Shown one piece after another: positions 16,414 through 17,299 of a stretch of 64,000 nt of DNA. The first letter of the stretch is position 1. Every line of letters begins with the position of its first letter. The stretch is from Candidatus Nitrosocosmicus agrestis (lineage in GTDB: Archaea > Thermoproteota > Nitrososphaeria > Nitrososphaerales > Nitrososphaeraceae). Under the pieces are notes generated by a model. The model did not search any database and was not told where the DNA came from. It saw nothing but the letters and a program-made list of their open reading frames with translations. The stretch spans positions 20,366-84,365 of the forward strand of contig NZ_VUYS01000016.1 of the NCBI RefSeq assembly GCF_008389435.1, in the 5' to 3' direction. Position numbers and translations under genes: made by a program.

Positions 16414-16603
16414 CAATTTCAAGGAAAATGAATATGGAGGGGTTGTTTTGTTACGGCCTTACATACTGTACTTCTGGATTAAATAATCACCATCAGACAT
16501 TCTGGATAGATATTCACGATTAAATCAATCGTCATACCTCTCCACATATTAGAAAAACTACAAACATTTCATCGGTTATTTATAACACGATCATGTGCTG
16601 ATA

Positions 16604-16692
16604 GAGTGACTATTATAAGCCAGTTCCGTGTTTGGCTCCCTCACTCCACCATAATAATGACCTTCGGTGAACGGAACAGAAAACCGGGTCAT
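16604..16692 (+). ncRNA. Candidate structured RNA: two compound hairpins with complementary loops
   Basis: Hairpin 1 pairs GAGTGA (16604-16609) with TCACTC (16641-16646), and inside it AGCCA (16618-16622) with TGGCT (16633-16637). Hairpin 2 pairs ATGACC (16657-16662) with GGTCAT (16687-16692), and inside it CGGT (16665-16668) with ACCG (16683-16686). The loop of hairpin 1 contains GTTCCGT (16623-16629), the exact reverse complement of ACGGAAC (16671-16677) in the loop of hairpin 2, so a kissing-loop contact is possible. The segment is GC-rich relative to its surroundings. No known family recognised; the strand is not certain because all pairings also exist on the other strand. Confidence 0.4.
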
Positions 16693-16803
16693 CGTTTCGC
16701 ACCTACTTAATATATTATAATACATAGTAATAAACTTTTAGTTATTGCCAATACTTACCAAGAATTATCAATATCTATAATATTATCTTCAATTTACGGA
16801 GGC

Positions 16804-17225
16804 GGCCCTGTTCATTAACGAAATCTTATAGCTTGAAGATGCTTATCTCCTTTATGATTACCAGAAATAAAACACCTTCAAAATATGTCTGCTATGGACT
16901 ACATCCATAGTTTTCAGGTCTTTCTCTTAGAAAAGCCTCTGAAAGATTATCTAAATTGTTTAAACGAAATCATGTTTCCATCTGAAATTAAATTCAAAAG
17001 TATCAAGTTATAAGAATCTCGTCGAAGAGAAAAAGGATTAGAATTTATCGTCGACGAGACTTTGCTTAGGGTTGGTTCAGAATATGTATGGCTCTGGGCG
17101 GCTATTGAACCAGAAACTAAGCAAATACTCTCGCTATCTTTATCTAAAGAGAGAAACATATTTGTATTCGAAAGATATCCTTCAGGTTTAGTAAAAATCC
17201 ACGAGAAGCATCCTGTATCCAAAAC
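16804..17225 (+). mobile_element. IS6-family insertion sequence fragment (left end and 5' half of transposase)
   Basis: It begins with an IS6-type terminal sequence, GGCCCTGTTCATTAACGA. The DDE transposase reading then becomes clear from FIVDETLLRVGSEYVWLWAA (first catalytic Asp in VDET) to LVKIHEKHPVS, after which homology stops near 17225. It aligns with the decayed copy at 24433-25122 from the terminal repeat through the shared TATAGCTTGAAGATG. Frameshifts occur upstream of the VDET motif and the 3' half and right end are missing, so it is dead. Confidence 0.75.
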
Positions 17226-17299
17226 AATTGATATTCTTGTTGTTCCTCAAGGCCAGTATAACCATATTACCTTGTCCTATAGACACCCAATTTAGTTTT

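Follow-up and report, generated by a model that had tools for sequence, protein, structure and literature searches.

Within the 64,000-nucleotide stretch of Candidatus Nitrosocosmicus agrestis DNA analyzed here (the window), the minus strand carries a compact element in which two hairpins, P2 and P3, are linked through their loops. In this copy the RNA is read on the minus strand, its body running from 16693 to 16598; these limits (16598–16693) mark exactly the block that is 99% identical to the nearest relative, G011:C168, beyond which the flanks are unrelated. P2 comprises an outer stem of 6 bp, AUGACC (16687–16692) with GGUCAU (16657–16662), in which every pair shows compensatory changes among 61 copies, and an inner stem of 4 bp, P2b, CGGU (16683–16686) with ACCG (16665–16668), which is supported by covariation and the minimum free energy (MFE) fold and whose first 3 bp are family-wide. 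P3 joins GGUGGAGUGA (16641–16650) to UCACUCUAUC (16600–16609) over 10 bp, with compensatory changes at all 10 pairs across the same 61 copies, and continues into the 4-bp P3b, GCCA (16633–16636) with UGGC (16619–16622), where 99.2% of alignment cells pair. The two loops meet in a 7-bp kissing helix between GUUCCGU in loop 1 (16671–16677) and ACGGAAC in loop 2 (16623–16629). The window copy keeps all 30 modelled pairs and is therefore structurally sound, and the covariance model matches it at 16708–16588 on the minus strand with 120.5 bits (E 1e-30; this copy is among the model's own sequences).

The initial annotation had described two neighboring hairpins with a perfect 7-nt complement between their loops, and both are indeed present (GTTCCGT at 16623–16629 and ACGGAAC at 16671–16677 on the plus strand). 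Its measurements fared less well: the 6-bp outer stem that it gave to one hairpin becomes the 10-bp P3 on the minus strand, since two of the pairs are G.U and do not show on the plus strand, and the body grows to about 16598–16693. Folding energy is a weak argument for any of this. The 89 nt first quoted are modestly stable relative to shuffled sequence (z −1.86 on the plus strand, −0.67 on the minus). With the corrected ends (16588–16708), P1, P2 and P3 form a three-way junction in the minus-strand fold, whose energy of −36.4 kcal/mol (z −2.1) is matched by 7 of 200 shuffles; the plus strand of this segment gives z −0.8. The arrangement of the loops is rarer, in that none of 3000 dinucleotide shuffles had two MFE hairpin loops sharing a perfect complement of at least 7 nt and only 5 of 3000 reached at least 6. 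It is the comparative evidence that is decisive.

A first alignment, of 19 sequences, has 98% of its cells paired and compensatory changes at 13 of the 30 pairs. Among 61 copies, 96.4% of pair cells are standard and the compensatory changes extend to 24 of 30 pairs, which bears out the covariation in relatives to which the initial annotation had looked. Doubly changed cells number 209 in these 61 sequences as opposed to 57 ± 9 in shuffles, and sliding the partner by 1–3 columns lowers pairing to 30–50%; as related sequences are not independent, such counts are not to be read as probabilities. The kissing helix is 97.7% paired across the 61 copies, in an alignment (A3) whose model contained P2 and P3 and left the kissing pairs out, so that the alignment was not biased toward it. 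The family includes five perfect kissing combinations (GUUCCGU/ACGGAAC, GUCCCGU/ACGGGAC, AUUCCGU/ACGGAAU, GCUCCGU/ACGGAGC and ACUCCGU/ACGGAGU), and their variation across genera would be hard to account for without a selected pairing. As judged from the alignment, P2 and P3 are real helices whose loops pair over 7 bp. Beside the kissing strands stand near-invariant unpaired bases: UUU and UUC flanking strand 1, and AAA ahead of strand 2. A further contact, between the P2–P3 linker (UAUU) and the internal loop of P3 (AUAAUAG), looked plausible in the window and was dropped because it is lost, by eye, in the g5, g9 and g11 copies.

The same alignment reverses the plus-strand reading of the initial annotation. 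Read on the minus strand, the modelled pairs include 102 G.U and only 22 A.C, and 45 copies favor the minus strand to 3 for the plus; G.U so far exceeds A.C that the minus strand must be the RNA strand. These counts, the fold energy and the lack of a TATA-like peak on the antisense side led us to reject an RNA from the plus strand. A small peptide or other protein product was also discarded: each sense frame has stops in 29–55 of the 61 copies, none is open family-wide, and P2 carries 2-nt indels among copies.

Whether an outer stem encloses the two hairpins depends on the genus. The initial annotation had found no P1, and this holds for the window's own genus, where native flanks pair no better than permuted ones (341 of 2000 permutations as good) and the MFE fold of 16588–16708 offers only a weak 4-bp P1, GUGC (16699–16702) with GCAC (16595–16598). 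Across the family it does not hold. The mean P1 score is 16.4 with a copy's own flanks versus 11.8 ± 0.4 with permuted flanks, a value reached in 0 of 2000 permutations, and most copies outside the window's genus have complementary flanks, such as CCUUCUGCA/UGCAGAAGG, AGGCUCCUGU/ACAGGAGCCU and CCCGCCCGC/GCGGGCGGG. By this comparison, most genera add an enclosing P1 and so form a three-way junction. One genus also has a shorter type of the RNA (L142, L143, L148 and L150–L156), in which both loops are kept, P2 is continuous and TTTTAAAT lies upstream; the internal loops are absent and the junction is not conserved. The scripted comparison of this type left out L142 and L149, and L155 is degenerate. 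Several of the genomes concerned carry both RNA types.

Covariance searches, which began with a model made from 19 copies, place the RNA in 48 of 70 Nitrososphaeraceae genomes and 10 of 12 genera, at 1–6 copies each and mostly 1–3. The window genome holds three, the two paralogues being 86% and 81% identical to the window copy, and the largest number observed is six, in genome bin G083 (L104, L106, L128, L130, L131 and L137). The RNA has no match in several genomes of the family whose completeness is at least 94%, and is therefore not universally required. Outside the family, the broader model R2 found no genome at E 0.01 or better in samples of 201 genomes from the order, 150 from the class and 151 from the phylum; model R1 had given a single hit at E 0.02 in a different family of the order (G194), which R2 at E 0.01 did not recover and which was treated as chance. 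The exact two-loop pattern, sought across 84,980 bacterial and archaeal species, gave 27 matches, all 27 in Nitrososphaerales or Thaumarchaeota records (the contigs are labelled Nitrososphaerales, Nitrososphaeraceae, Nitrososphaeria, Nitrososphaera, Nitrosocosmicus, Nitrosopolaris or Thaumarchaeota). The phage, plasmid and viral collections searched contained no match.

Most copies seem, from the sequences upstream of them, to be made from a promoter of their own. TATA-like octamers peak 51–60 nt upstream of loop 1, with 16 starts as compared with 1.2 ± 1.4 (maximum 4) per 10-nt background bin, and the box keeps its fixed upstream distance family-wide in unrelated contexts; the opposite strand has no such peak. 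Archaeal TATA boxes stand at a usual spacing from the transcription start, and this spacing would put the predicted start near the 5′ strand of P1. The conserved TATA block is absent from both the window copy and its 99% relative, so that the window copy may go untranscribed or depend on a different promoter; at the corresponding position (16709–16736, minus strand) there is an AT-rich stretch without a perfect match to the box. No oligo-T terminator stands out downstream.

We consider it likely that the locus is one of three genomic copies of an apparently undescribed, stand-alone Nitrososphaeraceae noncoding RNA of about 95–120 nt that would act in trans. The structured, kissing-loop sRNA that the initial annotation had suggested gains support from the covariation, the wide conservation, the fixed upstream TATA-like box and the lack of a constant downstream gene. 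As we picture it, transcription from the TATA-like promoter would yield an RNA whose 5′ end lies near P1, its two hairpins would be kept next to each other by the kissing helix, and their conserved loop–loop face would present a putative binding surface for a protein, forming an RNP, or for a small ligand, acting in trans. We infer this role in RNP or ligand binding from conservation only; it was preferred because the unpaired loop bases are near-invariant and because the loops survive when the RNA shrinks to its shorter type. A more tentative reading, which we hold to be doubtful, makes the RNA a new functional class in archaea: its near-invariant kissing-loop core would be a site dedicated to binding or catalysis, whether for a metabolite, a metal or a clade-specific protein, and the RNA would work as a sensor or RNP in its own right and not as a leader. 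The RNA would add an undescribed structured family to the soil ammonia-oxidizing archaea, its loop–loop core would offer a clean case of a non-leader archaeal RNA keeping a tertiary contact under selection, and the detail available on its fold, strand and promoter position suffices for direct testing in cultured strains. We found no description of it in the literature, in a search mostly outside subscription journals, and an earlier description may exist; nor did the literature searched describe any sRNA from soil ammonia-oxidizing archaea, and noncoding or small RNAs go unmentioned in a transcriptome paper on Nitrososphaera viennensis (PMC7785015).

Antisense sRNAs are known in archaea, sRNA162 of Methanosarcina mazei being one example (PMC3510493), and the RNA described here could be another, a stand-alone regulator whose kissing loops would part and base-pair with mRNAs. 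Like stand-alone archaeal sRNAs of this kind, it is short and intergenic with a predicted promoter of its own, and opening of the kiss would expose its loops; it differs in having a covariation-supported tertiary contact, no known target and a range confined to Nitrososphaeraceae. The seven loop bases, however, have their partners within the RNA itself and covary with them, and since the loop sequences are both conserved and paired internally, free antisense pairing is the less likely use for them. We regard the antisense reading as unlikely, and the trans-acting binding RNA as the better account of the same loops.

A cis-acting riboswitch or leader, in which the three-way junction would sense a ligand and control the gene just downstream, is suggested by architecture. 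In the purine riboswitch aptamer (RF00167), loop–loop pairing locks together the two parallel hairpins of a three-way junction, and the new RNA resembles it in its P1–P2–P3 junction and kissing loops, P2, P3 and the kiss covarying and P1 being found family-wide. Yet its hairpins are longer and contain internal loops, its conserved core lies in the loops and not in the junction (which the shorter type does not keep), it is limited to one archaeal family, P1 is undetectable in the window's genus, and it does not sit in the leaders of purine genes. The initial annotation had seen no purine riboswitch signature, and a covariance model scan of the window and three relatives gave no purine match, Rfam 15 has no match in the window at gathering thresholds, riboswitches included, and the best sub-threshold matches in the same four sequences belong to unrelated families far below their cut-offs.

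Genomic context weighs further against control in cis. We surveyed 61 loci with flanks of up to 4 kb, taking naive open reading frames of at least 120 aa as genes, which makes the neighbor counts approximate. No neighbor is constant, the largest gene cluster being present at 7 of 61 loci, and of 49 downstream genes 21 are sense and 28 antisense, only 3 being sense and within 150 nt. With neither a constant downstream gene nor more than these 3 of 49 close sense genes, the RNA is not a riboswitch leader as far as its surroundings tell. A point for a leader is a syntenic arrangement in one genus, alanine dehydrogenase-like (by eye), RNA, Rieske/FMN reductase (Pfam) and UvrC-like (by eye), where, in L089, L093 and L095, no more than about 10 nt separate the end of the RNA model from the start of the sense Rieske/FMN-reductase gene; at L086 and L090, however, the same Rieske gene family is convergent to the RNA. 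A riboswitch is accordingly improbable, and a stand-alone RNA remains our preferred reading.

Equally improbable, in our estimate, is a tiny mobile or repeat element of the MITE type, whose conservation would stem from copying and not from RNA function. Copies have certainly changed position. The window copy and G011:C168 (L105), from another species, are 99% identical over the 96-bp body and unrelated in their flanks, the promoter block included, and since the body is all that the nearest relatives have in common, it has relocated without the family's promoter block, in a discrete move of the RNA body. In genome G076, L118 and L121 lie on two contigs and are 98% identical over 149 bp, from the TATA box through P1, with unrelated flanks, so that promoter and RNA have evidently duplicated there as a unit; a different genome, as noted, has six copies. 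Against such an element, the usual 1–3 copies fall short of the many similar copies per genome that it would entail, in one lineage the RNA stays within a syntenic stretch of more than 5 kb in different species, the phage, plasmid and viral collections are empty of it, and the compensatory changes, which include the kissing helix, require selection on the RNA fold. A self-cleaving or other catalytic RNA built on the kissing-loop core, to which the near-invariant loop nucleotides and pseudoknotted architecture might point, is on the sequence evidence very improbable, with no match to any Rfam ribozyme family.

An association with tRNA genes was set aside, only 2 tRNAs occurring in 58 loci. A decayed, transposase-like remnant with many stops occupies 16836–17295 of the window. 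The initial annotation had reported an IS6-type fragment nearby; the IS6 label is by eye only, as the 77-aa open piece has no Pfam match, and the remnant is incidental to the RNA, which occurs in many unrelated contexts. A relation to IS6 was dropped, given that the Pfam scan of this 77-aa frame found no transposase and that the other copies have no shared transposase neighbor among the recurrent clusters. A synteny group in Nitrosocosmicus includes a gene for TFB (Pfam TFIIB).
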